DNA from: Paenarthrobacter sp. DKR-5
GTDB taxonomy: Bacteria; Actinomycetota; Actinomycetes; Actinomycetales; Micrococcaceae
Reading direction: 5' to 3'
Length of the DNA: 64,000 bases
Assembly: GCF_018531425.1 (NCBI RefSeq)
Contig: NZ_JAHBOI010000003.1
Coordinates: 248,001 to 312,000 of the forward strand
The notes under the pieces are model-generated. The model was not told the origin of the DNA, did not search any database, and saw nothing but the letters and a program-made list of their open reading frames with translations. The translations under genes and the position numbers were made by a program. The number at the start of each line of letters is the position of its first letter. The first letter of the stretch is position 1. Below, in pieces: positions 20,725 to 63,915 of the stretch.

Positions 20725-20857
20725 GGCCCTGGCGCGTGACGCCGGCAAACCTTTCCCGCAACAACCCTCCCGCTGCGCAGGGGTTTATGGGTAAGGTAAG
20801 CGGAACAGCCGGACATGGGGCGTCCGGTTGGGTCAACGTGCAAGGGGTCGAGCACAT

Positions 20858-23596: not shown

Positions 23597-23610
23597 AACC
23601 AGGGGGTGCG

Positions 23611-29161: not shown

Positions 29162-29214
29162 CTCTTTCATTGGGGTGTGCCACAGCGGTGGTATGAAAGG
29201 CAGCGACAAAGGAA

Positions 29215-32205: not shown

Positions 32206-32271
32206 ATGTTTGCCAGGTCTCATTGTCGGTCTCACTTTGACCGTCCGCTGCAGGACGGGGTTCGGTCATGA
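32206..32271 (+). CDS. Putative 21-aa leader peptide coupled to array member 5
   Basis: ATG at 32206 follows the strongest ribosome-binding site in the region, GGGGGAGGAATTCAC. It encodes MFARSHCRSHFDRPLQDGVRS and stops in a TGA that overlaps the ATG of the member 5 gene (ATGA at 32268). Member 5 itself has only a weak GACGGGG site. The arrangement suggests translational coupling, or a regulatory upstream ORF, rather than a functional peptide, though the peptide is Arg/His-rich and carries one Cys. No homologue is recognised. Confidence 0.5.
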   Translation: MFARSHCRSHFDRPLQDGVRS

Positions 32272-34898: not shown

Positions 34899-37588
34899 AC
34901 CCGGAAGGGGAGCATCGCCCGCGCGGACCTGTCCCGGTTGGCCGGGCGGACGCGCTGGACGCTGTCGCCGGCAGCCTGCTCACCGACGGCGTTCTGGGGA
35001 CGCTGGTGATCGGGGACGCGGGGCTGGGCAAGACCGGCCTGGCGCGCGCGGCCCTGGCTGAGCTCGGGCCCAGGCTCAAAGCGTTCCGGATCTCCACCAG
35101 CCGCTCGCTCGCGTCGGTCCCCTTCGGGGCGCTCGCCCCGTTCCTCGACTCGCTGCCCGCTGAGGCACCGCTCTCAGGCTGGCACGTGACCGGCGCCCTG
35201 CTGGAACATCTGCGCGCCGAACTGGCCGACGGCGAGGAAGCCCTCCTGGTGATCGATGACGCGCACGACCTGGACGAAGGAAGTGCCGGCGCCGTCGCCC
35301 AGCTTGTCGCGACCGGGGGAGTGCGCCTGCTTGCCCTCGCGCGGCCGCAGCCCGGGCCCCCGGCCGCTTTGCTCTCGCTGTGGCGGGACGGCCTGCTCGC
35401 GCGCTACGACCTGGCACCGCTGGGCGCTGCGCAGAGCCGGGAACTGTGCGAACAGGTCCTTGGCGGCCCCCTGCTGCGCGCTTCCGCCGCGTTGCTGCAC
35501 CATGCCGCCGGCGGCAACCCGATGTTCCTGCTCGCGTACCTGTCCGAAGCCCGCAGGCTCGGCAGGCTCAGGGAAACCAACGGGGTGTGGATCCTCGTTG
35601 ACCACCGGCCGGCGGTCAACCCTTTCCTGCTCGACCTGGTCCGCGAGCAGCTCCTCCGGCTCGGGGAGGACGAAATCGAGGTCCTCGAGACGGCAGCCCT
35701 GGCCGAGCCGGTCCAGCTCTCGGTGTTGCTGGCCGCCGGCAGCCCCGGCGCTGTCGACAGCCTGGAGGAAGCCGGCCTGATCAAGGTTTCTGCCGGGCCG
35801 GAGCGGCAGGTGGCGCTGCACTGCCCGCTCTATGCCGAGGTGATCCGCCTGCTGGTGCCCGCCGGCCGCAGCCTCGCCCTTCACCGGCAGGTGAGTGCCC
35901 TCATCGACACCGGCACGCTCACCGGCCCCGCGCTCGTGCGCTACGTCGCCTGGTCGCTCGATGGCGGGTCCATCTTGCCTGAAGCCCTCCTGCTCCGCGC
36001 TGCGCGGGAGGCCAACCGGCTCTTTGACACCGGCCTGGCGAAGCGGGCGGCAGGGCTGGTCTGCTCGCCGGAAGGCGCCGCGGCGGCACGGGTCGAGCTT
36101 GCGCGCGCGGACTTCTACCGCGGCGACTGCGCCCAGGCGGCGGCGATGCTGCACGGCCTTCCCTCGACGGCTGCCGATCCTTCCACGATTGAGGCAAGCG
36201 CCCTGCTCGGGCTCCGGGTGGCCCTGCGCGAGGGGACTGATCCCGGCGAGCTCAGGCTGGCCGCAGCGGCTTGGAAGCAGGCCGCGGGCCGGTGCGCCGC
36301 GGCCGGCGACGTGGCGGCGGCCGCGGCAGCGGAATCCGCCGCCGCCGTCTTTGACCTGCAGGCACTCGCGCTGGACGGACGCTACCAGGAGGCTGAAGAA
36401 GGGCTCGAGCGGCTCGTTGCGGGCCCGCACAGCGTGTTCCGGGTTCTTGCCCTGACACTGCTGGCGGAAGGACTGACGTCCGCGGGCCGCTGTGACGCCG
36501 GCGCGGCAGCCAGCGAAAGGGCACTGGAGCTGCTGGGCGAGCACCCCGACCCGGCAGGGCTGGAGGACGAATGCGTCCTCGTCAGCCACGCGTTCTCCTT
36601 GCTGCAGTCCGGGAGATTCAGTGAACTTGATGCGGTGCTGGACGGATACCTGCACCGGGCTCCGCTGAGCCTTGTGTGTTTTGGCGGGACGGTCCAGTTG
36701 CTGGAGGCGCTCGCGGACCTCCGCCGCGGCCTGATGCGTGCCGCGTTGGAGAAACTGGTGGTGGCAGTCGAGGCGCTGCGGTGTTCCGATCTGGCCCAGC
36801 TCGAGCCCTTTGCCGTATCCGCCGCGGCCTACGCGGCATCGCTGCTGGGGCGGCGGGACCTCACCGAGCGCTACACCGCCGGCTTCCTGGAACTGCCGGC
36901 CGCGGGACGCCGGCAACTGCATCTGCTGGCGAGGGCCCACGTGCTGGCGGCCGGGGCTGCGGTGAACAGTGTTTCCCTCACACTCGAAAGCCTGGGCAGG
37001 CTGCGCGAGGAAGCCCTTGGTCACGGCCTGCCGGCAGCCGCGCTGGACATCGCCATGCTGGAGATCCGCCTCGGCGCGCAGGGTGCCTGGGAGGGTCTGG
37101 CGGAACTCTCCAAGCGGCTCGAGGGCCGCTACCAGGGGGTGCTCAACGACTACGCCCATGCCGTCATGGACCGCGACCCCGCGGCACTGCTGCGCACCGG
37201 AGATGACGCCGCCGACGCCGGGTACCCTCTCGTGGCGGCGGAGTGCGCCGCGCACGCGATGCGGTATCTCCAGGCCGGTTCCGTCCGGCGCGAGCTGCGC
37301 GCTGCCTCGCAGCGGTTGCAGCAGTTGCGCCCGGGCCTCGAGGGGATCGCCACCGCATTCCTCGCCCTGCCGCAGGAGACCTCGCGGCTTACCCGCCGCG
37401 AAACGGACATCGCCACGCTTGTGCTCAACGGGGCCGCCAACCGGGAAGTGGCCGAACGCCTCTCGCTTTCCTTGAGGACCGTCGAAGGCCATCTCTACCG
37501 TATCTTCTCCAAGCTGGGCATCAACCGCCGCGAGGATCTGACCGCGTCCCACTTGAATGGCAACCCGGGGATCCCAGGCGCGGCCTAG
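34895..37588 (+). CDS. LAL-type LuxR regulator, array member 6 (B-type)
   Basis: 897 aa, starting in an ATGA overlap. VPVGRADALDAV entry; Walker A GDAGLGKTG (40-48); Walker B LLVIDDAHDLD (117-127), intact; AGGNPMFLL; Ala-rich helical repeats including YVAWSLDGGS; HTH 832-887 (NREVAERLSLSLRTVEGHLYRIF, then SKLGINRRED), followed by a ten-residue tail. The DDAHDLD motif and the NRRE ending match members 2 and 4. It is the last of the array and converges with the APS kinase gene 49 bp further on; no strong hairpin was found in that gap. Confidence 0.9.
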   Translation: MNPEGEHRPRGPVPVGRADALDAVAGSLLTDGVLGTLVIGDAGLGKTGLARAALAELGPRLKAFRISTSRSLASVPFGALAPFLDSLPAEAPLSGWHVTGALLEHLRAELADGEEALLVIDDAHDLDEGSAGAVAQLVATGGVRLLALARPQPGPPAALLSLWRDGLLARYDLAPLGAAQSRELCEQVLGGPLLRASAALLHHAAGGNPMFLLAYLSEARRLGRLRETNGVWILVDHRPAVNPFLLDLVREQLLRLGEDEIEVLETAALAEPVQLSVLLAAGSPGAVDSLEEAGLIKVSAGPERQVALHCPLYAEVIRLLVPAGRSLALHRQVSALIDTGTLTGPALVRYVAWSLDGGSILPEALLLRAAREANRLFDTGLAKRAAGLVCSPEGAAAARVELARADFYRGDCAQAAAMLHGLPSTAADPSTIEASALLGLRVALREGTDPGELRLAAAAWKQAAGRCAAAGDVAAAAAAESAAAVFDLQALALDGRYQEAEEGLERLVAGPHSVFRVLALTLLAEGLTSAGRCDAGAAASERALELLGEHPDPAGLEDECVLVSHAFSLLQSGRFSELDAVLDGYLHRAPLSLVCFGGTVQLLEALADLRRGLMRAALEKLVVAVEALRCSDLAQLEPFAVSAAAYAASLLGRRDLTERYTAGFLELPAAGRRQLHLLARAHVLAAGAAVNSVSLTLESLGRLREEALGHGLPAAALDIAMLEIRLGAQGAWEGLAELSKRLEGRYQGVLNDYAHAVMDRDPAALLRTGDDAADAGYPLVAAECAAHAMRYLQAGSVRRELRAASQRLQQLRPGLEGIATAFLALPQETSRLTRRETDIATLVLNGAANREVAERLSLSLRTVEGHLYRIFSKLGINRREDLTASHLNGNPGIPGAA

Positions 37589-37637: not shown

Positions 37638-38936
37638 CTAAGCTCTGGAGCGCCGCGCCAGCAGCGCCAGGACCGCATCCACCGCGGCGTCTACCGGCAT
37701 GGAGGCCGTATCGAGCATCAGGTCGGCATCCGTCGGAACCTCGTAGGGAGCATCGATTCCCGTGAAGCTGGTGAGCAGGCCCGCCCGGGCTTTGGCGTAG
37801 AGGCCCTTGCGGTCCCGTCCCTCGCACACCTCTAGAGGGGTAGAGACATGCACCAACACGAAGGTCCCGCTGTCTTCGGCCATCAGCCGGGCCTGCGCCC
37901 TGGTCGCCTCGTGAGGGGCGATCGGTGCGCAGATGGCAATTCCCCCGGAACGCGCGACGGCAGCTGCCACCCAGGCGATACGGCGCACGTTGAGGTCTCT
38001 GTCCGCCGGCGAGAAGCCCAGCTCGGAGGAGAGCAGACGGCGCACGTCGTCGCCGTCGAGCAAAATGACCGCGCGCGGGTCGGCGTCTTGCAAACGCTCT
38101 GCAAGGGCGCGGGCGACGGTCGATTTGCCGGCGCCGGACAACCCGGTGAAGAAAACGACGAGCCCCTCGGCCCGCTGCAGGCGGGATGCCTCCCGGCCCC
38201 GGCTACCCCAGGCGGGACCGGACCCGGCACCGGCGTCCGTGGCAGGGCTGAACTCAAGCACCGTGCGGCCGCCGAGACGCTCCAACGCGTAACGGGTAAG
38301 CCCTCCGTCCGGCTGCGGGCCGCGCGGGTCCACAGGTTCGACCAGCAAGCCCACGCGGGCGCCTGGCACTTCCGCCGCGCAGCGCTGCAGGGCGGCCAGC
38401 AGCCCGGACGCGGCGTTGCCTCCCGGCCGCTGGCTCGGCACGACGGCCACCAGCAGCAGCGTGGCGCCGGCGGCCGACGTGAGGGCGGCCGCCATGGCGG
38501 CGGCGGAGGGTTCCGCGCGGAACGCCGCGACGACGAGCGGTCCGCCGTTTTCCGCGGCGACCGGCCGGGTCAGGCGCAGGGTTCGCGCCGGCGGGTGTTC
38601 GGCGGGCTGCAAGGGACTCAGCGGCCCGGCGAGGAAAAGGGTGTCCGGACCGCCAGGGGCGCTGGTCCGCACCGCCAGGGCCGCGAGCGGCGTGCCGTCG
38701 GCGTCGGTCAGTTCGAGCGCGCCGTGGCGCAGTGCCTCAGCGGCCAGCGGCAGCGGTACCTCGAGGGTGAACCGTGCCGGCCAGCCCGCCGGCGTCTGCG
38801 CTGGCAGGCAGTAACCGTCCGCAGGGGAGTACAGGCCGCCGAGCAGCAGTTCCAGCTCGTCGAGGGCAGCCGGCTGCAGGGCCAGCGCCGGACGCAGCAG
38901 CGCCAACGGCTCCGAGGCGGGACCGGGTGAGCTCAT
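37638..38936 (-). CDS. cysC: APS kinase with degenerate ATP-sulfurylase-like N-terminal domain
   Basis: 432 aa from the ATG at 38936, which overlaps the upstream TauE stop as ATGA; the open frame continues upstream but only through the permease gene. Residues about 255-432 are a complete adenylylsulfate kinase: P-loop GLSGAGKST (265-273), LDGDDVRRLLSSELGFS, DRDLNVRRIAWVA and GLYAKARAG. It phosphorylates APS to PAPS. Residues 1-240 resemble the ATP-sulfurylase N-terminal domain (ELELLLGGLYSPADGYC), but the QTRNP and HxGH nucleotide-binding motifs are absent, so this half is probably structural. ATP sulfurylase activity would come from CysDN, encoded at 42680-44838. The gene feeds sulfotransferases of the polysaccharide locus. 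Confidence 0.9.
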   Translation of the reverse strand: MSSPGPASEPLALLRPALALQPAALDELELLLGGLYSPADGYCLPAQTPAGWPARFTLEVPLPLAAEALRHGALELTDADGTPLAALAVRTSAPGGPDTLFLAGPLSPLQPAEHPPARTLRLTRPVAAENGGPLVVAAFRAEPSAAAMAAALTSAAGATLLLVAVVPSQRPGGNAASGLLAALQRCAAEVPGARVGLLVEPVDPRGPQPDGGLTRYALERLGGRTVLEFSPATDAGAGSGPAWGSRGREASRLQRAEGLVVFFTGLSGAGKSTVARALAERLQDADPRAVILLDGDDVRRLLSSELGFSPADRDLNVRRIAWVAAAVARSGGIAICAPIAPHEATRAQARLMAEDSGTFVLVHVSTPLEVCEGRDRKGLYAKARAGLLTSFTGIDAPYEVPTDADLMLDTASMPVDAAVDAVLALLARRSRA

Positions 38937-39898
38937 GAGTCCGCTCCCGTCCGCGGAGCGGCCGCCACCCGCAGGGGCAGCAGACGCGGCAGGAGTCGCC
39001 CGGCCAGGGCAGGGAAGCCAAGGCGGCGGCGAAGCTGCATCCAGACCGGCGTCCCCACCAGCAGCGCGGCAAGCAGCACCAGCACCGTCGAAAGGTTGCC
39101 GACGCCGAGCATTTTCAGCGCAGACGCCAGCAGGACGAGGGCCAGCGCGCGCCGCACGAAGCCGCCCGGCATCCGAGCCGAGAGCTGGGCGCCGAGGAAG
39201 ACTCCGGGAATGCCGCCGATCACTAACGGCACGGTGACAGCGAGGTTCAGGTCGCCAAACAGGGCATGCCCGGCGGCGGCGGAGGCCACCAGCGGAACCG
39301 CCTGCAGGAGATCGGTGCCGACCAGCTGGCCGGCCTTGAGCCCCGGGTAGAGCAGCATCAACCCGATGATCATGATCGACCCGGACCCCACGGAGGTGAG
39401 GCCGACAAAAGCGCCTCCAAGCACGCCCAGCAGGACCGTGGGCAGGCGGCGCACGGCGGCCGCGGGCCGGCACAGGCGGTGCCGCGGGACGCTTCCGTCG
39501 CGCCGACGTGCCCTGTCGGCCAGGCGCAGGTACGCCCGGACGGCCAGCAGCACCACCGTCAGCAGCAGGGCTGCTCCAAGCCCCGCCTGGATCAGCTCCT
39601 GCACCGCCTCTCCCGGCGCGGCCAGTTTGAGAAGCAGCACGGCCGAAAAAGCGGAGGGAACCGAACCCAGGGCCAGCCATTTGACGAGGCCGAGGTTCAC
39701 CGTGCCGTGGCGCAGATGCACGGCGGACCCCACGGGCTTCATCACGGCGCTTGCCAGCAGGTCACTGGACACCGCGCTGAGCGGCGGGACGCCAAAGAAG
39801 AGGACGAGGACCGGTGTCATGAGCGCGCCACCTCCCATGCCGGTCAAACCGACGACGATCCCGACTCCGAAGGCTGCCAGACCCATGGTGAGCTCCAT
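38933..39898 (-). CDS. TauE/SafE family permease (sulfite/sulfate or organosulfonate)
   Basis: 321 aa from the ATG at 39898, chosen because MELTMGLAAFGVGI starts directly at the first membrane helix; the frame opens to 40192 through non-conserved sequence. The family hallmark is the repeated GxxVGLTGMGGGALMTP (near 15-30) and VGLTSVGSGSIMIIGL (near 165-180), with about eight hydrophobic segments. TauE/SafE proteins move sulfite, sulfonates or other small anions. Its 4-bp overlap with cysC and position beside the sulfation genes suggest supply or export of a sulfur anion for PAPS synthesis; direction of transport is not predictable. Confidence 0.85.
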   Translation of the reverse strand: MELTMGLAAFGVGIVVGLTGMGGGALMTPVLVLFFGVPPLSAVSSDLLASAVMKPVGSAVHLRHGTVNLGLVKWLALGSVPSAFSAVLLLKLAAPGEAVQELIQAGLGAALLLTVVLLAVRAYLRLADRARRRDGSVPRHRLCRPAAAVRRLPTVLLGVLGGAFVGLTSVGSGSIMIIGLMLLYPGLKAGQLVGTDLLQAVPLVASAAAGHALFGDLNLAVTVPLVIGGIPGVFLGAQLSARMPGGFVRRALALVLLASALKMLGVGNLSTVLVLLAALLVGTPVWMQLRRRLGFPALAGRLLPRLLPLRVAAAPRTGADS

Positions 39899-40138: not shown

Positions 40139-40321
40139 ATGAGTGATGAAGCCACACCTCGAATGTTGACCAATGCCGCAGCAGTGCTGCACGCCTGGCG
40201 CTTCGGCGGCCAGGCCCCCCGTACGGGACCGGCGACGGTGGAGTCTTCTGAGACCGAGACTTCCCCCCCAGCCGTCGCCGGCCCCTCCTTCTCCGCCTTC
40301 CGCCCCGGTGACCAGCGATGA
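40139..40321 (+). CDS. Small ORF coupled to the initiating sugar transferase gene
   Basis: 60 aa, MSDEATPRMLTNAAAVLHAW to start, then a Pro/Ser/Thr/Glu-rich tail ending FRPGDQR. The stop overlaps the ATG of the downstream gene (ATGA at 40318), and the sugar transferase has only a weak ribosome-binding site of its own, both of which argue that this ORF is translated. No signal peptide, membrane segment or known domain is seen. It may be a small EPS-associated protein or merely a coupling ORF. Confidence 0.45.
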   Translation: MSDEATPRMLTNAAAVLHAWRFGGQAPRTGPATVESSETETSPPAVAGPSFSAFRPGDQR

Positions 40322-41844
40322 CCGGACTGGAGGCGACGGTCGGAGCCCGGCTCGAACGCCCGGTCATCGGCTTCGCGCCGGCCCGGTCCCGGACCAGCCG
40401 GCGGACAGCGGTCAAGCCCGGGCTCGCCTGGGCCTGGCGCTACCGGCGGCTGCTGGGCTTCAGCGACGCCGTAGTCCTGATCGCTGCGGTGGCCACGGCC
40501 CAAGTGGGCCGCTTCGGTCTCCACGAGCTCGATGCGCCCGTCAGAGGGTGGGGCATCGCATACCCGGTGATGTCGGTGGTCATCGCCGCAGTCTGGATGC
40601 TTGCCCTCGGCGCCTACCGCAGCCGGGACATCCGCGTCGTGGGCATCGGGTCGGACGAGTACAAACGGGTGGTCAACGCCACCGTCACCGTCCTCGGGGT
40701 GCTCGGCATCGTGTGCCTGGTCTTCAAGGTCGACGTCGCGCGGGGCTTCTTTGCCTTGGCATTCCCGCTAGGGGTGTCGGGCTTGCTCGGTTCACGTTGG
40801 GCGCTACGCCAGTGGCTCACCCGCCAGCGGGTGAAAGGCCACTACCTTTCCCGCGTGATCGTGCTCGGAAACCGCAAGGACGCCGCGTACGTGATCAACC
40901 AGATCGACAAGAAATCCGGAGCCGCCTATGAGGTGGTGGGTGCGGCGCTGCCGGCCGGTGACCCGAGACTGAGCCTGGCCGTGGGAGCTCGGCAGGTCCC
41001 GGTCGTCTGCACTGCCCACTCGGTCATCGACGCCGTGCGCACCACGGGGGTCGATGCCGTCATCGTGGCAGGCCCGCTCAAGGGCGGCAGCTCGTATATC
41101 CGCAAACTTGGCTGGCTTCTGGAGGAGACCGGCACCGAACTGGTCCTGGCAACCGGCCTGACCAACGTTGCCGGCCCGCGCATCCATTCCCGACCGGTGG
41201 AAGGCCTGCCGCTGATGCACGTGGAGTTGCCGCAGTACTCCGGGGCGAAGCACGCCTTGAAGCGTCTGACCGACATCGTGCTCTCCGGCGTCGCGCTCGT
41301 CGCGCTGGCCCCGCTGTTCCTTGTCCTGGCCATAATGGTCAAACGCGACAGCCCCGGGCCTGTGCTCTTCCGGCAGGAACGCGTGGGCCGCGACGGCGAG
41401 CCCTTCCGGATGCTGAAGTTCCGCTCCATGGTGGACCACGCAGAAGACAACCTCGCGGGCCTGCTGGCGCAGAACGAAGGCGCGGGGGTGCTGTTCAAGA
41501 TGCGCGACGATCCCCGGGTGACCAAGGTCGGCACCTGGATGCGGCGGTACTCCCTCGACGAACTGCCGCAGCTGTGGAATGTGCTGGTCGGCGACATGAG
41601 CCTGGTCGGGCCGCGGCCGCCACTGCAGCGCGAGGTGGACGGATACAAGAGCCATGTGCACCGCAGGCTCTACATCAAGCCGGGCCTGACAGGCCTCTGG
41701 CAGACGAGCGGCCGCTCCGAACTGAGCTGGCGCGAGAGCGTCCGGCTTGACCTGTACTACGTCGAAAACTGGTCCCTGACCGGCGACATCATGATCATGT
41801 GGCGCACCGCCAGAATGCTCACGAACCCCGTCGGCGCCTACTAG
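40318..41844 (+). CDS. Undecaprenyl-phosphate sugar-phosphate transferase (WbaP/CpsE type)
   Basis: 508 aa, first major gene of the EPS operon. N-terminal membrane helices (about 40-165), a central soluble Rossmann-like domain (VIVLGNRKDAAYVINQI, about 178), and a C-terminal transferase domain: KRLTDIVLSGVALVALAP, LFRQERVGRDGEPFRMLKF, YSLDELPQLWNVLVGDMSLV with GPRPPL, and KPGLTGLWQTSGRS. This is the polyisoprenyl-phosphate hexose-1-phosphate transferase family, which puts the first sugar of a repeat unit on undecaprenyl phosphate. It therefore starts the polymer made by the locus. Which sugar (glucose or galactose usually) cannot be told. Confidence 0.93.
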   Translation: MTGLEATVGARLERPVIGFAPARSRTSRRTAVKPGLAWAWRYRRLLGFSDAVVLIAAVATAQVGRFGLHELDAPVRGWGIAYPVMSVVIAAVWMLALGAYRSRDIRVVGIGSDEYKRVVNATVTVLGVLGIVCLVFKVDVARGFFALAFPLGVSGLLGSRWALRQWLTRQRVKGHYLSRVIVLGNRKDAAYVINQIDKKSGAAYEVVGAALPAGDPRLSLAVGARQVPVVCTAHSVIDAVRTTGVDAVIVAGPLKGGSSYIRKLGWLLEETGTELVLATGLTNVAGPRIHSRPVEGLPLMHVELPQYSGAKHALKRLTDIVLSGVALVALAPLFLVLAIMVKRDSPGPVLFRQERVGRDGEPFRMLKFRSMVDHAEDNLAGLLAQNEGAGVLFKMRDDPRVTKVGTWMRRYSLDELPQLWNVLVGDMSLVGPRPPLQREVDGYKSHVHRRLYIKPGLTGLWQTSGRSELSWRESVRLDLYYVENWSLTGDIMIMWRTARMLTNPVGAY

Positions 41845-41856
41845 GAACGGAAAGCA

Positions 41857-42678
41857 ATGATCCTCCTGAACAGACTGGGCACGCTCGCCGCAGGCGGCCT
41901 GACCGACCAGCAGCTCGCCGAGGCTCTCGCCCGCAAGGCCGGGGAGAGCCTGCTCAAGATCCAGTCCGCCGTCCTGCGGGCCGGCGAGGGCCGCGAGCCG
42001 GCCGGTCTCGGAGCGGAGGGGGACAGGAAATCGCAGGAATACCTGCGCAAGGCCCTGGCCCGGACCCGGCCGCAGGATTCGGTGCTTTCTGAGGAAGCCG
42101 CGGACGACCCGAGGCGGCTGTCCGCGAAACGCGTCTGGATCATTGACCCATTGGATGGAACGCGCGAGTTTTCCGAAGGCCGCCGCGACTGGGGGGTGCA
42201 TGTGGCCCTGTGGTCAGGCGGCAACCTTACAGCCGGGGCGGTGGCACTGCCCCGGCTGGGGCTGGTGTGCGGAGCACCCGCCCAGCCGCCGGCGCGGTCC
42301 ACGGGCCGGAAGATCCGGCTGGCGGTGTCACGGAGCCGGCCGCCGCGCATCGCCGAGACCGTGGCCGCGCACCTCGGCGCCGAGTTGATCCCGATGGGCT
42401 CTGCCGGATACAAAGTCTGCGCGGTCGCCAGCGGAGAGGTCGACGGCTACCTGCACGACGGCGGCCAGTACGAATGGGACTCCGCGGCGCCTGTGGTCGT
42501 GGCCCGCTCCGCGGGGCTGCACGTGAGCCGGCTCGACGGCACTGCGCCGCGGTACAACCAGCCGGATCCGTACCTGCCGGACCTGCTGGTCTGCCGCCCG
42601 GAACTGCGCGACAGGTTGCTGGAAACCATCAAGAGGGCCCGGCTCAGCGAAGCCGCAGCCCGGAAGACGGGAGACTGA
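41857..42678 (+). CDS. cysQ: CysQ-like 3'(2'),5'-bisphosphate nucleotidase
   Basis: 273 aa, GGAAAG before the ATG, 12 bp after the sugar transferase. Inositol-monophosphatase superfamily signatures: SEEAADD, the metal site WIIDPLDGTREF and QYEWDSAAPVVVAR. EFSEGRRDWGVHVAL is typical of CysQ-type enzymes. It would dephosphorylate PAP, the product of sulfotransferases, preventing product inhibition. Placement directly upstream of cysDN and in the same operon as sulfotransferase-like genes supports this over an inositol role. Confidence 0.88.
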   Translation: MILLNRLGTLAAGGLTDQQLAEALARKAGESLLKIQSAVLRAGEGREPAGLGAEGDRKSQEYLRKALARTRPQDSVLSEEAADDPRRLSAKRVWIIDPLDGTREFSEGRRDWGVHVALWSGGNLTAGAVALPRLGLVCGAPAQPPARSTGRKIRLAVSRSRPPRIAETVAAHLGAELIPMGSAGYKVCAVASGEVDGYLHDGGQYEWDSAAPVVVARSAGLHVSRLDGTAPRYNQPDPYLPDLLVCRPELRDRLLETIKRARLSEAAARKTGD

Positions 42679-42679
42679 G

Positions 42680-43591
42680 ATGGCGGAGACGACCCGGGGC
42701 ACGCTGTCCCACCTGAAGGTGCTCGAGTCCGAGGCGATCTATATCATCCGCGAAGTCGCCGCGGAGGTGGAACGGCCGGCCCTGATGTTCTCGGGGGGCA
42801 AGGACTCGATCGTCATGCTCCATCTGGCGCGCAAGGCCTTCGCCCCCGCCGGGATACCCTTCCAGGTACTCCACATCGACACCGGGCACAATTTCCCGGA
42901 GGTGCTCGACTTCCGCGACCGCGTGGTGGCCGACCTTGGGCTGAATCTCGTGGTCGGCTCCGTGCAGGAGGCGATCGACCGCGGCGTCGTCCGGGAGGAA
43001 CCCAACGGCTCCCGCAACAGGATCCAGACCCCCGTCCTGCTGGAGACAGCGGACAAGCACGGATTCAACGCGCTGCTCGGGGGCGCCCGCCGCGACGAAG
43101 AGAAATCACGGGCCAAGGAACGGGTGTTCTCGTTCCGTGACGAGTTCGGCCAGTGGGACCCGAAACGGCAGCGGCCCGAACTGTGGAACCTCTACAACGC
43201 CAAGGTGCGCGTCGGCGAAAGCATGCGGGTGTTCCCGCTGTCGAACTGGACCGAACTGGACATCTGGAAATACATCGCGGCCGAGGGCATCGAGGTGCCG
43301 GACCTCTACTACGCGCAGCGCCGGGAAGTCTTCGAACGCCACGGCATGCTGTTCGCCGTCAACGACCTCTGTCGGCCCGCCGACGGGGAGAAGACGTTCG
43401 TGGAGTCCGTGCGTTACCGCACGGTCGGCGATGCCACGCTCACCGCCGCTGTCCGTTCCGAGGCCACCACCGTCGACCTCGTCCTGGCCGAGATCGCTTC
43501 CACCACGGTCACCGAACGCGGAGCAACCCGCGGCGATGACCGGGTGAGCGAGGCCGCCATGGAAGACAGGAAGAAAGAAGGCTACTTCTGA
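42680..43591 (+). CDS. cysD: Sulfate adenylyltransferase subunit 2
   Basis: 303 aa, GGGAGA upstream, one base after the cysQ stop. Adenine-nucleotide alpha-hydrolase fold: PP-loop FSGGKDSIVMLHLARKAF (37-54), HIDTGHNFPEV, GGARRDEEKSRAKER and VFPLSNWTELDIWKYI. The C-terminus ends in the conserved DRKKEGYF. With CysN it makes APS from sulfate and ATP. No cysH or sulfite reductase is nearby, unlike assimilatory cys operons. The stop overlaps the cysN start by one base (TGATG). Confidence 0.96.
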   Translation: MAETTRGTLSHLKVLESEAIYIIREVAAEVERPALMFSGGKDSIVMLHLARKAFAPAGIPFQVLHIDTGHNFPEVLDFRDRVVADLGLNLVVGSVQEAIDRGVVREEPNGSRNRIQTPVLLETADKHGFNALLGGARRDEEKSRAKERVFSFRDEFGQWDPKRQRPELWNLYNAKVRVGESMRVFPLSNWTELDIWKYIAAEGIEVPDLYYAQRREVFERHGMLFAVNDLCRPADGEKTFVESVRYRTVGDATLTAAVRSEATTVDLVLAEIASTTVTERGATRGDDRVSEAAMEDRKKEGYF

Positions 43592-44838
43592 TGGACCTCC
43601 TTCGTTTTGCCACGGCCGGGTCGGTCGACGACGGCAAGAGCACACTGATCGGCCGGCTGCTGTATGACTCCAAGGCTGTCCTGAGCGACCAGCTTGCCGG
43701 AGTGGAGCGGGCCAGCCGCGACATGGGCGCCGGGTACACCGAACTCGCCCTGCTCACCGACGGCCTGCGCGCCGAACGGGAACAGGGCATCACCATCGAC
43801 GTCGCCTACCGCTACTTCGCCACCGCGGTGCGCAAATTCATCATCGCTGACACCCCGGGACACCTGCAGTACACCCGGAACATGGTCACCGGCGCGTCCA
43901 CTGCGGACCTGGCGATCGTGCTGGTCGACGCCCGGACGGGACTGAAGGAGCAGAGCCGGCGGCACGCCTTCCTGGCCTCGCTGCTGCAGGTTCCCCATCT
44001 GGTGCTCGCCGTGAACAAAATGGACCTGGTGGGCTACTCCGAGGAGGCTTTCCAGGCCATCCGGGCCGAGTTCTCCGAATTCGCCGCAAAACTGCAGATT
44101 GCGGACCTGACAGTGATCCCTGTCTCGGCACTCAACGGTGACAACGTCGTTGACCGGTCGCCCAATATGCCGTGGTACGAGGGCGCGTCGCTGCTGCACC
44201 ACCTCGAACACGTCCACATTGCCAGTGACCGGAACCTGGTCGACGGCCGCTTCCCGGTCCAGTACGTGATCCGCCCGCATGACCGGGAGTACCCCGATTA
44301 CCGCGGGTACGCGGGACGGGTCGCCGGCGGCGTGATGCGCCCGGGCGATGACGTCGTGGTGCTGCCGAGCGGGCTGCCGAGCCGGATCGTTTCGATCGAC
44401 ACGGCCGACGGGCCGGTGGAGGAGGCCTACGCCCCGATGGCCGTCACCGTGCGGCTGGAGGATGACCTGGATATCTCCCGAGGCGACATGATTTGCCGGC
44501 CGCACAACCAGCCCAAGGTCAGCCAGGACATCGATGCGATGGTGGCCTGGATGAGCGAGAGCCCGCTGCGGCCGGGCCTGAAACTCGCGGTCAAACACAC
44601 CACCCGCAGCGCGCGGGCGCTGGTGCAGGACATCCAGTACGAACTCGATGTCAACACGCTTCACCGCAACGCGGACAGTTCACAGCTGGGCCTGAACTCG
44701 ATCGGCCGGGTCCGGCTGCGCACCACCACGCCGCTGCTGGCGGATGAGTACCGGCGCAACCGGGAGACCGGCGGCTTCGTCCTGATCGACGAGCAGACGC
44801 ACGACACGGTTGGCGCAGGAATGATCCTGCAGGCCTGA
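43591..44838 (+). CDS. cysN: Sulfate adenylyltransferase subunit 1 (GTPase)
   Basis: 415 aa, starts in the TGATG junction with cysD. EF-Tu-like GTPase: G1 GSVDDGKST (10-18), EREQGITIDVAYRYF switch I, G3 DTPGH (87-91), NKMDLV (G4) and VSALNGDN. Beta-barrel domains follow (about 230-415). GTP hydrolysis drives APS formation. There is no fused CysC domain; the APS kinase is encoded separately at 37638. The gene is followed by a 37-bp gap and a strong ribosome-binding site for the pssD-like gene. Confidence 0.96.
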   Translation: MDLLRFATAGSVDDGKSTLIGRLLYDSKAVLSDQLAGVERASRDMGAGYTELALLTDGLRAEREQGITIDVAYRYFATAVRKFIIADTPGHLQYTRNMVTGASTADLAIVLVDARTGLKEQSRRHAFLASLLQVPHLVLAVNKMDLVGYSEEAFQAIRAEFSEFAAKLQIADLTVIPVSALNGDNVVDRSPNMPWYEGASLLHHLEHVHIASDRNLVDGRFPVQYVIRPHDREYPDYRGYAGRVAGGVMRPGDDVVVLPSGLPSRIVSIDTADGPVEEAYAPMAVTVRLEDDLDISRGDMICRPHNQPKVSQDIDAMVAWMSESPLRPGLKLAVKHTTRSARALVQDIQYELDVNTLHRNADSSQLGLNSIGRVRLRTTTPLLADEYRRNRETGGFVLIDEQTHDTVGAGMILQA

Positions 44839-44875: not shown

Positions 44876-45358
44876 ATGACCACGCAACTGCCGGCGCCCG
44901 GCGGCGAACGGATCCTGCTGGTGGGTTCGAGCGGGGGACATCTGGCGCAACTGCTGTCGCTGCGCCCCTGGTGGTCCCGGCACGAGCGGGCATGGGCGAC
45001 GTTCCGGACGCCGGACGCCGAATACGCGCTCGCGGACGAGCCGGATGTGTCCTGGGTCCACTCGCCCACGACCCGCAACGTCCCGAACCTGTTGCGCAAT
45101 ACCGCGCTCGCTGCGGGCCTGGTCCGGAGGTTCCGGCCCACCGTGGTCGTAAGCACCGGGGCCGGGAGCGCCCTGCCGTTCTTTGCCCTCGGCCGGCTCC
45201 AGGAGGCTACTACGATCTACATTGAAGTTTTTGACCGGGTCGAGAGCCCGACGATGACCGGGCGGCTTTGCCGGCCCTTCACGGACCTGATGTGCGTGCA
45301 GTGGGAGGACCAGCTCGGCCTGTACCGGGACGCGCACCTCGTGGGGAGGCTGCTGTGA
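44876..45358 (+). CDS. PssD/Alg14-like glycosyltransferase membrane subunit
   Basis: 160 aa with GGAGGAGGG upstream. Alg14/PssD signatures: RILLVGSSGGHLAQLLSL, RPTVVVSTGAGSALPFFALG and IYIEVFDRVESPTMTGRL. In Alg13/Alg14 and PssE/PssD pairs, this subunit binds the membrane and acceptor lipid while the other binds the UDP-sugar; together they add the second sugar to the lipid-linked repeat. The next gene (GTGA overlap) starts with the matching PssE/Alg13 domain, confirming the pairing. Confidence 0.88.
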   Translation: MTTQLPAPGGERILLVGSSGGHLAQLLSLRPWWSRHERAWATFRTPDAEYALADEPDVSWVHSPTTRNVPNLLRNTALAAGLVRRFRPTVVVSTGAGSALPFFALGRLQEATTIYIEVFDRVESPTMTGRLCRPFTDLMCVQWEDQLGLYRDAHLVGRLL

Positions 45359-46608
45359 ACGCCCGCGCCGGACGCACCATCGCCGTCCTGGTCGGGACCG
45401 ACCACCACCCGTTCCAGCGGGCCGTGGACTGGGCCGACACCTGGGCCGCCCGGAACCCGCAGGACGATGTGGTCGTCCAGCACGGGCACAGCCCTGCGCC
45501 CCGCGTAGCCAGCGGTGTGGCCTTCCTCGGGCCGGCGGACCTCGCGGCGCTGATGTCCGGAAGCGACATCGTCGTGAGCCATGGCGGCCCCGCCACCATT
45601 TCAGGGGCACGCGCCAGCGGCCACCTGCCGCTTGTCCTGGCCCGGGACCCCCGGCTGGGAGAGCACGTCGATGACCATCAGCAGCGCTTCGCGCGCTGGT
45701 CAGGGCAGCGTTCACTCGTCGTCTGTGTCGAGTCCGTGCAGGAACTGGAGGCCCGGGTCGCGCTCTGTGCGGAGCGGAAGGCGGGCACGCGGCTGGAACA
45801 CCCCTGCGGCGCGGGAGATGCTGATGACGCGGTCCTGCACCTGACCCGGCTGCTGCACAAGCACCGGTCCGGCGGGAACAAGGCGTCGGAGGGTGCGCCT
45901 GTGGTGCTGTTCGCGGGGGCCGCGGACGCCGGTGCGCGCCAGAGCCTCGCCGCCGCGGTGGCGCGCCGGGAGGGGACCGCCGTGCTGGGCGACGTCCGCG
46001 GGCTGTGGCGGACCGGGCCTTCCGCCACCGGCTGCGCCTGCGGGGAGAGCCTGGTGGAGTGCGAATTCTGGGAAGCCGTGGGCAAGGTGGCCTTCGGCGG
46101 CTGGCGCGACGTCGACCCGGACCGGCTCGAGGGGGCTCGGCGGGCAGTCGAAGCGCCGCGGGGCCGTTGGGGCAGCCTGCTGCCCGTCGAGCCGCCCGCC
46201 CGCCGCTTGGAACTGGCCGCCTACACCGCGTACTACCAGGCTCTCTACCGGGCCGCTCGCGAAGTCTCCGGAGCTGACGTCGTCGTCGACGTGGGCGATG
46301 ACCTGTTGCGTGCCTGCGCCCTGTCCCATAACCGCGAAATCGACCTGCGGGTGCTCTGGCTCGACGACGTCGCGGACCCGCTCGGACGGGCGCTGCGCCC
46401 GCTGGCTTTCGAAGCGCTGCGCCAGCGCGGTGTGCCGCACGCGCACGTCTCCGCGGCGCTGCTGCGTGACAGGCCCCTGCAAACATCCCGGAGGTTGGAG
46501 GAAGCATGGAATTCACTGGATCTGCCAGGCCCGCAGGTGGCACGGGGGCCCGGACCGGCCGGGCAGCACAGCCTGGTGTCCCAGCCCGGCGTCCAACGGT
46601 CAGCGTAG
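45355..46608 (+). CDS. PssE/Alg13-like catalytic domain fused to a sulfotransferase-like domain
   Basis: 417 aa from the GTG at 45355 (GGGGAGG upstream, 4-bp overlap with the pssD-like stop). Residues 1-165 are the sugar-nucleotide-binding PssE/Alg13 part: VLVGTDHHPFQRAVDWADTW and VSHGGPATISGARASGHLPL. Residues about 182-390 match the sulfotransferase fold: LGDVRGLWRTG, a CACGESLVECEFW cysteine motif and VGKVAFGGW, all usual in bacterial PAPS sulfotransferases. However, the PAPS-binding P-loop (usually RSGST) reads GAADAGARQSL (188-198), and the 3'-phosphate motif reads LDDVADPLGR, so activity is doubtful. The last 103 bases overlap the next gene. The fusion directly links sugar transfer to the sulfation theme. 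Confidence 0.8.
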   Translation: MNARAGRTIAVLVGTDHHPFQRAVDWADTWAARNPQDDVVVQHGHSPAPRVASGVAFLGPADLAALMSGSDIVVSHGGPATISGARASGHLPLVLARDPRLGEHVDDHQQRFARWSGQRSLVVCVESVQELEARVALCAERKAGTRLEHPCGAGDADDAVLHLTRLLHKHRSGGNKASEGAPVVLFAGAADAGARQSLAAAVARREGTAVLGDVRGLWRTGPSATGCACGESLVECEFWEAVGKVAFGGWRDVDPDRLEGARRAVEAPRGRWGSLLPVEPPARRLELAAYTAYYQALYRAAREVSGADVVVDVGDDLLRACALSHNREIDLRVLWLDDVADPLGRALRPLAFEALRQRGVPHAHVSAALLRDRPLQTSRRLEEAWNSLDLPGPQVARGPGPAGQHSLVSQPGVQRSA

Positions 46609-47498
46609 TCATCGCCACCCGCGACCGGCCCGCCCTGCTGTGCGAGGCCGTGCGTTCCGTGCTGGCCCAGACGTATGCGGGCCGCATCGAAGTGCTCGTC
46701 GTGCACGACCAGTCCGACCCAGACTTTTCGCTGGAGTTGAGCGCGCAGGACCGGGCCGTCCGCGTCCTGGCCAACGGGCGGCGGCCGGGGCTCGCAGGGG
46801 CTCGCAACTCGGGGATCGAGGAGGCTGCGGGAGAGTACATCGCGTTCTGCGACGACGACGATGTCTGGTCCCCGGGCAAACTCGCGGCGCAGGTCAGCAG
46901 GCTCGAGGAGGACCCTTCGGCGGACTTCGCCACCTGCGGCATCACCGTGCTGCACGACGGGCGCCGCCACGACCGCGTCCTCCGACGACACACGGTGACC
47001 TTCGCAGACCTGCTGCGGGACCGGCACACCGAACTGCACCCCTCCACCTTCCTGTTCCGCCGGGAGGCCGCGCACAACGGGTTCGGTCTGGTGGATGAGG
47101 CAGTGCCAGGGGGATTCGGGGAGGATTACGAGTTCCTGCTGCGTGCCGCCCGGCGGGCACCTATCGCCCATGTGCCGGAACCCTGGGTGACCGTACGGTG
47201 GGGCGCGCAGTCTTTCTTCTTCCAGCGCTGGCAGACGATGTCCGCAGGCTTGGCTGATGTGCTGGCGAAATATCCGGAGTTCGAATCGGTCCGGGCTGGC
47301 TCGGCGCGGATCCGCGGGCAGATCGCGTTCGCGCACGCTGCCCAGGCCAGCCGCCGTGAAGCCTGCCGGTGGGCCGCCTCCGCGATCCGCCGCAACCCGC
47401 TGGAACCGCGGGCTTTCCTGGCTCTCGGGGTTGCCACCGGCTGGGTCTCACCTGCAGCGGTCATGACCGCCCTGCACCGGCACGGTAAGGGTATTTGA
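46506..47498 (+). CDS. Glycosyltransferase family 2
   Basis: 330 aa. ATG preceded by GGAGGAAGC, an excellent ribosome-binding site, so the 103-bp overlap with the previous gene appears real. After about 30 low-complexity residues the GT-A domain runs VSVVIATRDRPALLCEAV, LAGARNSGIEEAAGEYIAF, then CDDDDVWSPGKL with the metal-binding acidic cluster, and GGFGEDYEFLLRA for the catalytic acidic motif. It should add a sugar to the lipid-linked repeat. Last gene of this plus-strand operon, followed by a convergent terminator. Confidence 0.9.
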   Translation: MEFTGSARPAGGTGARTGRAAQPGVPARRPTVSVVIATRDRPALLCEAVRSVLAQTYAGRIEVLVVHDQSDPDFSLELSAQDRAVRVLANGRRPGLAGARNSGIEEAAGEYIAFCDDDDVWSPGKLAAQVSRLEEDPSADFATCGITVLHDGRRHDRVLRRHTVTFADLLRDRHTELHPSTFLFRREAAHNGFGLVDEAVPGGFGEDYEFLLRAARRAPIAHVPEPWVTVRWGAQSFFFQRWQTMSAGLADVLAKYPEFESVRAGSARIRGQIAFAHAAQASRREACRWAASAIRRNPLEPRAFLALGVATGWVSPAAVMTALHRHGKGI

Positions 47499-47546: not shown

Positions 47547-48617
47547 CTAGAAGACCGCCTCGATCACGCGGCGCGACGCCTTGCCGTCTTCATTCGGACA
47601 GAACCGCTGCACGAACCCGTCGTAGCGGTCCCGCAAGCGGAGCTGATGGGCCGCCGCGTCGGTGAGGACGTCGGCTAGCGCCTCGGTGTCCGCGACCACC
47701 GGCCCGGGTGCCCACTGGTCGTAGTCGAAGTACATGCCCCGCACATCGTCGCGGTAGCCGGCCAGGTCGTAGGCGAAGAGCACGATGGGCTTTCCGGTCA
47801 CGGCGAAATCGTAGACGGCCGAGGAGTAGTCGGAGACCAGGACGTCCGCGGCCAGGTACAGCTCGGCGATGTCGGGGTAGTTGCTGACATCGCGCAGGAA
47901 GCCGTCGTCGCTGCCCTGCCGTGCCTGCACAACGCTGTGCAGCCGGTTCAGCAGCACGGTGCCTGCGGGCAGCAGCTGCCGGAGCAGACCGACGTCGAGC
48001 GCTCCTGGGTCGACGATGCCGCCGGCCCCGACCGAGTTGTCCCGCCACGTCGGCGCGTAGAGCACCACTTGTTGTCCGGACTCCAGCCCCAGCCGGCTCC
48101 GCACCGTCCGACGGATCGCCCCGGCTTGCGGAGAATTCAGAATGTCGTTGCGCGGATAGCCGGTTTCCAGGATGGGCCCGCCGTAATGGAAGGCACTGCG
48201 GAGGAGCCCGGAACACTCGGGGCTCGCGGAAAGCAGGTAATCCCATTTCTTGACATCCCGCACCATTCTTTTCATATGGGCGGCCGCGCCGGGATATTGC
48301 GCCATGTGCTCATCGAATCCCATGGTTTTTAGTGGAGTTCCATGCCAGGTCTGCAAATAGGTAACGCGTGGTCCTTTTACCAAATGCTTGCTCACAATGT
48401 CATTGGTAATCAGGAAGTCGCAGCTCAAGAGCCGTGCAAAATATTCCGGCGAGTGCCGGCGCACCCGTTCGACGCCGGCCGGCAGTTCGGTTGTTTCCTC
48501 GGCGACCCAGATCTGGCGAAGCTCCGGCCGCAGTATGGAGAGTTCCTCGGAGATTGCGCGCGGGTTGTCCGCGTAGCGGCCCCGCCAGCTCTCGAACATG
48601 ACGGTAGGGGTGTGCAT
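47547..48617 (-). CDS. CDP-glycerol glycerophosphotransferase family protein (TagB/TagF-like)
   Basis: 356 aa, AAGGAG upstream, 3 bp after the flippase stop. Family signatures: YLQTWHGTPLKTMGF, GYPRNDIL, VVLYAPTWRDN, LLNRLHSV and VLVSDYSSAVYDFAV followed by KPIVLFAYD. These enzymes transfer polyol-phosphate from CDP-polyol in teichoic acid synthesis or decorate capsules with glycerol phosphate. The donor could come from the cytidylyltransferase fusion at 59318. Bases about 48240-48430 use AT-ending codons (ATT, AAA, TTT) far more than neighbours, hinting at foreign origin. It is the last gene of the minus-strand wzy-wzz-wzx operon. Confidence 0.88.
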   Translation of the reverse strand: MHTPTVMFESWRGRYADNPRAISEELSILRPELRQIWVAEETTELPAGVERVRRHSPEYFARLLSCDFLITNDIVSKHLVKGPRVTYLQTWHGTPLKTMGFDEHMAQYPGAAAHMKRMVRDVKKWDYLLSASPECSGLLRSAFHYGGPILETGYPRNDILNSPQAGAIRRTVRSRLGLESGQQVVLYAPTWRDNSVGAGGIVDPGALDVGLLRQLLPAGTVLLNRLHSVVQARQGSDDGFLRDVSNYPDIAELYLAADVLVSDYSSAVYDFAVTGKPIVLFAYDLAGYRDDVRGMYFDYDQWAPGPVVADTEALADVLTDAAAHQLRLRDRYDGFVQRFCPNEDGKASRRVIEAVF

Positions 48618-53972: not shown

Positions 53973-54222
53973 AGGCTGACATCCCCCTGGGTGGATTCAC
54001 AAGACCGGATAAAACCTGCTCCCCGGCACGGGTTGTCGGGGGAATGGGACTGACTCTAGCCATTCCGGTACCACCTCCCTACACGTAGAACTACTTGTTT
54101 CCGGGCCTTTTGTGGCCCGGCATACTGCATTCATCCGCACGTCGGGGGGCGCGCACATATTCCATTGGAATTTCCTCCAGAAATACCTCAGTGGGGGAAA
54201 TGCGGCTCGGAAAGAAGGAAAA
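53973..54222. promoter_or_regulatory. Second divergent EPS promoter region
   Basis: 250 bases between the minus-strand wzy operon and the plus-strand PKD operon, AT-richer than the flanks. It contains near-palindrome CTACACGTAG (54079-54088), CTACTTG (54091-54097, complement of CAAGTAG), a perfect 7-bp hairpin CCGGGCC/GGCCCGG (54101-54120, six-base loop) and the palindrome ATTCCA-T-TGGAAT (54159-54171). A frame is open here from 54112, but the real start is placed at 54223 on ribosome-site and signal-peptide grounds. Confidence 0.45.
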
Positions 54223-61797: not shown

Positions 61798-63047
61798 CAC
61801 TGCAGCACCCGGCGGCAACGACAGCCGGACCGATGAGACCGCTCCTGGGCACGGTCAGTGACTTGTGGCCGGATTCCGGGGGAGCCGCCCTCTGCAGGGG
61901 CGGAGGCGGGCATGAGGGGGGTACCGAATTCCTCGTGGTGCCCAGCGCCCGCGCCCCCCGGATGCTCATCCCCGCCCGTCCGGCAGCAGCGGCGGCTGCC
62001 TCCCTTCGCCGGTACAGCGCGGCGATCTCGGCCCGCGAGACAGCGCAGCGGCTCGTGCTCTCGGCGGGCCTGGCCGCGCGGGCCGGGCAGACGCTGCTGC
62101 CGGACAGGGTCATGGTGCGGCCCTCGTCGCCGGGCGGGGCCCCCGGCGCCCGGGACATTGGCGCCTACCTGGGCGGGATCCTCGGCCAGCCGGTTAGTGT
62201 GAGCCTGACCATCGGCCCCGTCCGCGCGAACCGCAAACCGGTGCTGGAGGCCTTCGACGGCCGCGGCCGGCCGTTGGCCTTCGTCAAGGTGGGGGATTCG
62301 GCGACGGCAGCGGAGCATGTCGGCCGGGAGGCGGAGGCTCTGCGCACCCTCAGCAGGGATCAGTTTGCCACTTTGGCGGTCCCCGAGCTGATCTCCGTCG
62401 GTAGCTGGCGAGACATGACGGTGCTCGTCATGTCCGTCCTGCCGACCGGCCCGCAGGCCGGGGGCGAGCGGTTCCGGAGGCTCCGTTCGGCCGCGCTGCA
62501 GGAACTGTCGGCGGCTTTTCCCGCCGGCCGGATGCCACTGGAGCAAACGCCGTTCTGGGCGGCTCTGCGCTACGGCGCGCAGGAGCTGGGCGACTCCGGC
62601 CTGCGCGCCGCGTTCACCGACGCCCTCGACCGCACCGGGCGGCGCTTCGGCGCCGTACCTGTCAACGCCGGTGCCTGGCACGGCGACTGCACGCCGTGGA
62701 ACATGGCGGTGCGGCGCGGCAAGCTGCAGCTGTGGGATTGGGAACGCTTCGAACTCGGAGTGCCGGTCGGGCTGGATGCGGTCCATTACGCACTGAACAC
62801 GCTGGTGCGGGTGCGGGGCGCCACAACCGGCACCGTCCTCGCGGGCCTGCGGGCCGGCGCCCCGCGTTTCGAGGAACCAGGTTCGGCGGACGCCCTGCTT
62901 GCGAACGCCTACCTGTGTTCCATCACTTTGCGCTACCTGCGCGGGGCCGAAGGTCCCGGAGGGGACGCCATCAGAGAGAAGAGCCTGATCATGCTCCAGG
63001 TACTGCAGTCCGTTGCTGCCCGTCCGGGCGGAGCAGTCCGTGGCTAG
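61794..63047 (+). CDS. APH-fold phosphotransferase of unknown substrate
   Basis: 417 aa from the ATG at 61794, in an ATGA overlap. The N-terminal 100 residues are not recognised. KVGDSATAAEHVGREAEAL near 165-183 carries the ATP-binding Lys and helix-C Glu. The catalytic loop WHGDCTPWNMAVRRGKL (295-311) has Asp298 and Asn303, and the metal Asp315 is in LWDWERFELG. This is the aminoglycoside/choline/homoserine kinase-like fold. In this setting it may phosphorylate a sugar or polyol of the polymer, or a small molecule precursor; antibiotic resistance is not suggested by context. Confidence 0.7.
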   Translation: MTLQHPAATTAGPMRPLLGTVSDLWPDSGGAALCRGGGGHEGGTEFLVVPSARAPRMLIPARPAAAAAASLRRYSAAISARETAQRLVLSAGLAARAGQTLLPDRVMVRPSSPGGAPGARDIGAYLGGILGQPVSVSLTIGPVRANRKPVLEAFDGRGRPLAFVKVGDSATAAEHVGREAEALRTLSRDQFATLAVPELISVGSWRDMTVLVMSVLPTGPQAGGERFRRLRSAALQELSAAFPAGRMPLEQTPFWAALRYGAQELGDSGLRAAFTDALDRTGRRFGAVPVNAGAWHGDCTPWNMAVRRGKLQLWDWERFELGVPVGLDAVHYALNTLVRVRGATTGTVLAGLRAGAPRFEEPGSADALLANAYLCSITLRYLRGAEGPGGDAIREKSLIMLQVLQSVAARPGGAVRG

Positions 63048-63915
63048 CGGGCTGCGCACGCTGACCCGCTGGGCGGGTGCCAACGCCCCGGACCCCGTCC
63101 TCGACGCGGCCCGACAAGGCGTTGAATGGTGGGGGACGGTGAGCGCTCCGCTGCGCATGCTGCCCTCCGTCATCATCATCGGCGCGCAGCGCAGCGGCAC
63201 CACCACGCTGTACCGGATGCTCTCCAGCCACCCCGCGGTGCTGCGCCCCACGGCAAGCAAGGGCATCGGCTACTTCGACGTGAACTACGACCGGGGCATG
63301 CGCTGGTACCAGGGCCACTTCCCGCTGGCCCGGCAGCGCCCGGCCGGGGCGGTGACCTTCGAAAGCAGCGGGTACTACTCGTACCACCCGCTGGCGGTGC
63401 GGCGGCTGGCCGCGGACCTGCCCGAGGTCAAGCTCTTGATGATGCTGCGTGAGCCGGTGGACCGCGCCTACTCGGCCCACCGCCATGAGTTCAACAGGGG
63501 ATTCGAGACTGAATCCTTCGAACGGGCCCTGGACCTGGAACCCGCGCGGCTGGCCGGAGAGGTCGAACGGATGCTGGAAGAACCGGGGTACCAAAGCTAC
63601 TCCCACCGGCACCACTCCTACTTGGGCCGCAGCCGGTACATAGACCAGGTTCTCCAGATCCACCGGCTGGTGGGCCCGGAGCGCCTTTACCTGGTCGATG
63701 CCAACCGCTTCTTTGCCGCGCCGCACGAGGAATTCGCCGCCATCCAGCGCTGGCTCGGCCTGCCGTCGTGGCAGCCGGAGAAGGTGGGCGTGTGGAATGC
63801 ACAGCCGCGCGAACCGCTGGATCCTGCGCTTCGGCGGGACTTGGAGGACTATTTCGACCCCTTTGACCGGGCGCTCGAACGCGAAGCGGGGATCCGGCTC
63901 TCCTGGCGCAGTTGA
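63040..63915 (+). CDS. PAPS-dependent sulfotransferase
   Basis: 291 aa from the GTG at 63040 (GGCGGAG upstream, overlapping the previous stop by 8 bp); a TTG at 63013 is an alternative. The 5'-phosphosulfate-binding loop IIGAQRSGTTTLYRML (46-61) and the 3'-phosphate motif LREPVDRAYSAHRHEF (136-151) are intact, as in heparan-sulfate-type carbohydrate sulfotransferases. SSGYYSYHPLAVRRL and SRYIDQVLQ further support the family. No membrane segment is seen, so it would act in the cytosol on nucleotide- or lipid-linked sugars. It is the strongest evidence that the product of the locus is sulfated. Confidence 0.92.
   Translation: MASGLRTLTRWAGANAPDPVLDAARQGVEWWGTVSAPLRMLPSVIIIGAQRSGTTTLYRMLSSHPAVLRPTASKGIGYFDVNYDRGMRWYQGHFPLARQRPAGAVTFESSGYYSYHPLAVRRLAADLPEVKLLMMLREPVDRAYSAHRHEFNRGFETESFERALDLEPARLAGEVERMLEEPGYQSYSHRHHSYLGRSRYIDQVLQIHRLVGPERLYLVDANRFFAAPHEEFAAIQRWLGLPSWQPEKVGVWNAQPREPLDPALRRDLEDYFDPFDRALEREAGIRLSWRS

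Follow-up and report, generated by a model that had tools for sequence, protein, structure and literature searches.

Comparative analysis of a 64,000-nucleotide stretch of DNA from Paenarthrobacter sp. DKR-5 (hereafter the window) strongly supports the presence of a protein in which a PssE-type glycosyltransferase is joined to a pseudo-sulfotransferase. The preliminary description of this DNA had proposed a pseudoenzyme, and the proposal is supported: the same loss was found in seven species that form one clade, the retained core is under purifying selection, and no intact orthologue was found within the clade. Lacking a known PAPS site, the domain (hereafter the dead domain) should not sulfate by the usual mechanism. 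As all of its donor-binding parts are lost and yet its core is kept in at least seven species, it is probably a non-catalytic helper in making a sulfated surface sugar coat. The best overall explanation, to which we give a probability of about 0.5, is that it serves as a non-catalytic acceptor-side or structural module of the PssD/PssE glycosyltransferase, with sulfation ancestrally occurring on the same lipid-linked sugar.

Pseudoenzymes are known from most enzyme families. In the literature searched we found no report of a bacterial pseudo-sulfotransferase or of a PssE-sulfotransferase fusion, and nothing specific on sulfated EPS in Arthrobacter, on pseudo-sulfotransferases or on PssD/PssE fusions. 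Proteins of this kind should not be annotated as sulfotransferases.

Table 1. Features of the window around the fusion gene (coordinates in the window; residues are those of the fusion protein).
Feature	Position	Strand	Basis or remark
PssE-type glycosyltransferase and pseudo-sulfotransferase fusion, whole gene	45355..46608	+	417 aa; ORF
PssE/Alg13-like GT-B C-terminal (donor-binding) domain, residues 8-140	45376..45774	+	Intact HGGPATI and GEHVDDHQ motifs
Pseudo-sulfotransferase domain, residues 176-395	45880..46539	+	Homology to intact sulfotransferases
Site of the lost 5'-PAPS P-loop (GRSGSTLL in intact relatives)	45922..45945	+	No P-loop residue conserved inside the dead clade
Retained core LGD..W, C.CG..x..C.FW, VG..AFGGW, residues 206-262	45970..46140	+	9/11 family-invariant residues kept in 7/7
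Second retained block: long helix, SGA.V, ALSHNREIDLR, residues 281-332	46195..46350	+	Alignment, model
Lost DSSK lysine: K to D at residue 315, clade-specific D316	46297..46302	+	Alignment
Site of the lost, shortened 3'-phosphate loop (VRD.R.VAYSW in intact relatives)	46366..46389	+	Alignment
PssD/Alg14-like partner subunit	44876..45358	+	NCBIfam PssD 105 bits, slightly below the 110 cut-off; Alg14 E 8.7e-11
GT2 glycosyltransferase	46506..47498	+	Follows the PssE-sulfotransferase unit in 7/7 dead-fusion loci; overlaps the fusion 3' end
CysQ, CysD, CysN (PAP phosphatase and sulfate adenylyltransferase)	41857..44838	+	Profile matches
WbaP/EPS-type initiating sugar-phosphate transferase	40318..41844	+	Profile matches
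ORF with C-terminal APS kinase (CysC), completing PAPS synthesis	37638..39680	-	True start probably further in
Second sulfotransferase	63013..63915	+	Intact P-loop GAQRSGTTT and 3'-phosphate loop REPVDRAYS

The fusion gene and its glycosyltransferase half

The fusion gene begins with GTG and overlaps the stop of the preceding pssD by 4 nt. GC3 was 0.81-0.94 across the entire frame, a coding-type value, indicating that the C-terminal half is not a misread frame. A misread frame or pseudogene was ruled out by this GC3 together with the same open frame in six other species. An AlphaFold2 model of the protein, built from an alignment of 55 window and locus sequences, had a mean pLDDT of 89.6; a PDB sequence search with the single fusion protein returned no match.

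The N-terminal half had been described as PssE/Alg13-like, and this is borne out by a Pfam match, intact signature residues and a MurG-like GT-B fold. Glyco_tran_28_C matched residues 8-138 (E 1.1e-5, 26 bits against a cut-off of 22), and the family was matched by all seven dead-fusion members. In the fold search the modelled half aligned with the C-domain of MurG and other GT-B enzymes (Z 13-14). The two-component PssE/Cps14G and PssD/Cps14F glycosyltransferases, which are Alg13/Alg14-like, share with the fusion the HGGP and GEHVDDHQ signature and an upstream pssD with overlapping stop and start codons, and the adjoining PssD/Alg14-like gene is kept in 7/7 dead-fusion loci. The fusion differs from these systems in two respects. 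Standard PssE stops after about 165 residues whereas the fusion carries 240 more, of sulfotransferase descent. Unlike named PssE, it also scores only 49.4 bits against the NCBIfam PssE equivalog, under the 120-bit cut-off. The N-terminal half is predicted to work like PssE while lying outside the named equivalog.

Sulfotransferase descent of the C-terminal half

No Pfam family matched the window protein or the other clade members from about residue 176 onward. By homology, the C-terminal half is nevertheless a sulfotransferase by descent. A profile of the seven dead members aligned by hhalign with one of 25 intact sulfotransferases at a probability of 100% (E 4.6e-45, 218 columns), and blastp of the dead half against the nearest intact relative, L006, gave E values down to about 1e-37. 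Pfam PF13469 (Sulfotransfer_3) recognised 13/13 of the intact relatives tested. The likeness to the actinobacterial enzymes of this family (L006, L147 and genes of Nocardioides and Micromonospora, with the fold of TPST and CurM/OlnO) amounts to homology over about 220 residues, with a common core of Cys-x-Cys-Gly...Cys, AFGGW and DLR. Unlike these relatives, the dead domain is undetected by Pfam, has no P-loop, DSSK lysine or 3'-phosphate loop, and carries an eroded C-terminal motif.

The L006 model (pLDDT 92) matched human TPST1-PAP (Z 18.1, rmsd 3.4 Å, 240 aligned residues) as well as the olefin-synthase and CurM sulfotransferases, a clear match to a TPST-like PAPS sulfotransferase fold for the modelled protein. 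In the dead half, residues 181-390 were modelled mostly at a pLDDT of about 82-97, and the order of modelled secondary-structure elements was as in L006, except that some of the 3'-phosphate loop and of the C-terminal part is missing. The fold search with the whole fusion model gave no sulfotransferase among the matches listed, because the glycosyltransferase half accounts for those matches and the dead half was not matched alone; this result says nothing on the fold of the dead half.

Loss of the PAPS motifs

The preliminary description had noted the absence of an RSGST-type P-loop and an RDP-type 3'-phosphate motif, and both losses hold in the window and in six other species. The P-loop was invariant in 25/25 intact relatives and absent from all seven dead members. 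At the 3'-phosphate site the equivalents of R340 and D341 are gone, and the loop after them is shortened or deleted. The DSSK lysine is likewise gone, and the loss is wider than first stated, extending to the C-terminal PAPS-side region (YED, AGNP..RF, D..WR). Overall, intact proteins show little or no variation at R-S-G-S-T-L, the DSSK lysine, V-R-D with the later S-W, Y-E-D and the C-terminal G..R..D..W-R, all of which are missing from all or nearly all of the seven.

The current definition of a sulfotransferase rests on the PSB lysine or arginine, the PB-helix serine and the sheet architecture (PMC11625862); both of these residues are absent from the dead domain. We considered that the nucleotide site might have been remodelled for another ligand. 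This was rejected, as the former P-loop stretch holds no residue conserved within the clade (0/23 positions).

The retained core and selection

The LGDVRGLW, CACG...CEFW and AFGGW features reported earlier are indeed retained, and are largely features conserved in intact and dead members alike. To count what was kept and lost we used the 34 residues on which all 25 intact proteins agree. The dead clade kept 0/7 of these in the P-loop region, 9/11 in residues 206-262, 0/2 in residues 281-332 and 1/14 after residue 333. Retention in residues 206-262 thus contrasts with 1/23 elsewhere (Fisher p 9.7e-6), and the positions kept there are G, Cys, W and GGW positions. In the C-terminal third only 1/85 positions is invariant. 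C227, C229 and C236 (46033-46062) form a C-x-C-x6-C motif that is conserved in intact and dead members and is possibly a metal site.

Between the same pairs of genomes, the PssE halves were 53-67% identical and the dead halves 35-63%, mostly 35-50%. The reverse was found in intact fusions, in which conservation of the sulfotransferase half equals or exceeds that of PssE. In the closest pair (L002-L032) dN/dS of the dead half was about 0.2, the other pairs being near synonymous saturation. The dead half thus diverges faster than PssE yet shows a low dN/dS in the closest pair, indicating relaxed but continuing constraint. From these comparisons, the dead domain is under purifying selection while evolving faster than the PssE half.

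Distribution and evolutionary history

A search for the same fusion in other genomes, suggested in the preliminary description, found it in six further species with the same losses. All seven species belong to the GTDB family of the window and are Arthrobacter relatives: the window genome, Arthrobacter sp. Soil763 (G421), Arthrobacter sp. H14-L1 (G055), G027, G249 and the MAGs G494 and G028. In the family sampling the dead fusion was found in 6 of 395 genomes. The seven fusions formed one clade both in the sulfotransferase-domain tree (support 100/99) and in the PssE tree (support 91/80).

Intact fusions were found in Catellatospora (L036, L037, L040, L041, L083), an actinobacterial MAG (L035), G816 (L147) and G004 (L005). 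They have the same domain order as the dead fusions, and the same slot between PssD and GT2 where this was checked (L036, L147), but keep their PAPS motifs. Most lie on other sulfotransferase branches, with L147 placed near L006, beside the dead clade. Grouping of the dead clade with L147 was neither favoured nor rejected (p-AU 0.15). In Nocardioides, PssD, PssE, sulfotransferase and GT2 are separate and intact genes. This order is common to the Nocardioides genes, the fused intact genes of Catellatospora and G816, and the dead fusions, indicating that the separate-intact, fused-intact and fused-dead states fill one genomic slot.

It had been stated beforehand that homologues with intact PAPS motifs could show the fusion to be an ordinary enzyme. 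Such homologues do exist, but only outside the dead clade; they thus show the ancestral state and do not make the fusion an ordinary enzyme. The place of the window protein within the clade varied, with L107, L108 and L033 in the sulfotransferase-domain tree and with L145, L002 and L032 in the PssE tree, and the full-length tree left it unplaced. As its grouping differs among trees, we gave up the idea of using tree incongruence to argue for movement of the dead domain independent of the second sulfotransferase.

Tentatively, and at somewhat less than even odds, we propose a bacterial pseudo-sulfotransferase that originated when the domain was joined to a glycosyltransferase and that later acquired a new, non-catalytic function, for example in handling the lipid-linked acceptor or in arranging the enzymes of sugar transfer and sulfation, with intermediate stages surviving in related genomes. 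The presence of each stage of origin in related genomes offers a direct test of why a catalytic domain persists after its chemistry is lost.

PAPS supply and the second sulfotransferase

With CysQ, CysD and CysN in the locus and an APS kinase nearby, the locus and its immediate neighbourhood can supply PAPS. CysQ-CysD-CysN adjoin pssD in 6/7 dead-fusion genomes; in the seventh, G249, they share a 20-kb stretch with it. The stretch before the APS kinase resembles by eye an ATP-sulfurylase N-terminal (PUA-like) part, an unusual form of CysC. The rest of the locus encodes a TarF-like glycerophosphotransferase, a flippase, weakly Wzz- and Wzy-like membrane proteins, a PKD/lectin-domain protein and a cytidylyltransferase fusion.

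The second sulfotransferase is the only one in the window genome detected by Pfam Sulfotransfer_3. Exactly one enzyme of this kind was found in each of the seven dead-fusion genomes, in the same locus in six; the seventh is a fragmented MAG. Wherever its motifs were read, P-loop and 3'-phosphate loop were present. The set (the window enzyme and L189-L193) comprises two types, with P-loop RSGTTT or KRGGTTS, that are about 33% identical. The enzyme is present as well in two genomes in which the other-class sulfotransferase is intact, either fused (G816) or stand-alone (G034). None of the seven dead-fusion genomes yielded an intact paralogue of the dead class, and a heterodimer of the dead domain with such a paralogue was rejected for this reason.

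The loci of the window type in Arthrobacter relatives are probable sulfated-polysaccharide loci, a family marked by the dead fusion. A close parallel is the synechan xss cluster of Synechocystis, a Wzx/Wzy polysaccharide cluster with two sulfotransferases (PMC8205485). Both are EPS loci with two sulfotransferase-class proteins of distinct subfamilies, a flippase and glycosyltransferases. Unlike xss, the window locus has one sulfotransferase that is dead and fused to a glycosyltransferase, and carries its own PAPS genes.

Role of the dead domain

In the explanation we prefer, the fusion would combine the catalytic (donor-binding) subunit of a PssD/PssE-type glycosyltransferase with a sulfotransferase domain devoid of its PAPS site. 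The ancestral protein may have transferred a sugar and then sulfated that same undecaprenyl-PP-linked sugar. This lineage would then have lost sulfation at that position, or the second sulfotransferase would have taken it over. The PAPS-distal part (the Cys-rich/AFGGW segment, the long helix and the SHNREID strand) may have been kept for structural or acceptor-side work with PssD/PssE. It might hold the growing lipid-linked oligosaccharide, stabilise the glycosyltransferase complex, or both, and could place the complex between the initiating transferase and the next glycosyltransferase. We infer an acceptor-side or structural role because of which residues are kept, and folding could be the sole reason for keeping the core.

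This last point leads to a reading that we consider doubtful but worth weighing, in which the dead domain binds neither a ligand nor a partner of its own and persists as a passive prop, the fused PssE folding or being stable only in its presence. Evolution faster than that of PssE, the eroded and variable C-terminal third and the conserved hydrophobic and Cys core are in line with such a prop, as are the other PssE-like genes of the family, which manage without the domain in many genomes (solo frames of about 190-230 codons). By contrast, the polar residues S324, N326, E328, R284 and D316 are conserved across the clade beyond what a bare fold needs, even though some of them also occur in intact L006. 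The preliminary description had suggested instead that the dead domain recruits the second sulfotransferase; it would dock that enzyme on the glycosyltransferase complex, and sulfation would come after sugar transfer. The single copy of that enzyme in all dead-domain genomes, its usual place in the same locus and the nearby CysQ-CysD-CysN fit this idea. However, the enzyme also accompanies intact versions of the domain, and it belongs to another subfamily with two divergent types against a single dead-domain clade. These observations weaken a dedicated partnership, and we regard recruitment as unlikely.

Binding to an already sulfated lipid-linked intermediate, a role also raised in the preliminary description, with the dead domain as a lectin-like reader gating PssD/PssE activity, would agree with retention of the region away from the PAPS motifs and with a locus able to make PAPS. 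Nothing specific points to it, and sulfation, if by the second enzyme, could come before or after PssD/PssE; this reading is improbable. That the dead domain remains an active transferase, using a non-canonical donor site, seems barely credible. PSB residues can vary, as in mycobacterial Stf0 (PMC11625862), and a His near the C-terminus (H405) is present in 7/7, in a region where the alignment is uncertain. Set against this, the former P-loop shows no conservation within the clade, and the lysine and the R-D..S residues were lost together.

Other features of the window

A cytidylyltransferase fused to a GFO/IDH/MocA oxidoreductase (59318-60718, + strand) lies near the TarF-like glycerophosphotransferase gene (47547-48617), which suggests that the polymer contains a polyol or glycerol phosphate supplied in CDP-activated form. 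Within the available flanks, TarF and the cytidylyltransferase fusion were found only with loci carrying the type A second sulfotransferase. The PKD protein (54112-58635, + strand) has 1507 aa and combines PKD with laminin-G; the dead-fusion genomes whose flanks are long enough carry a PKD relative in this locus, as do G816 and Catellatospora. Further upstream, six consecutive large ORFs of 876-941 aa occupy 20828-37588 (+ strand). The two that were tested (32268-34898 and 34895-37588) are AAA/STAND-type LuxR regulators, and the run may consist of paralogous regulators.
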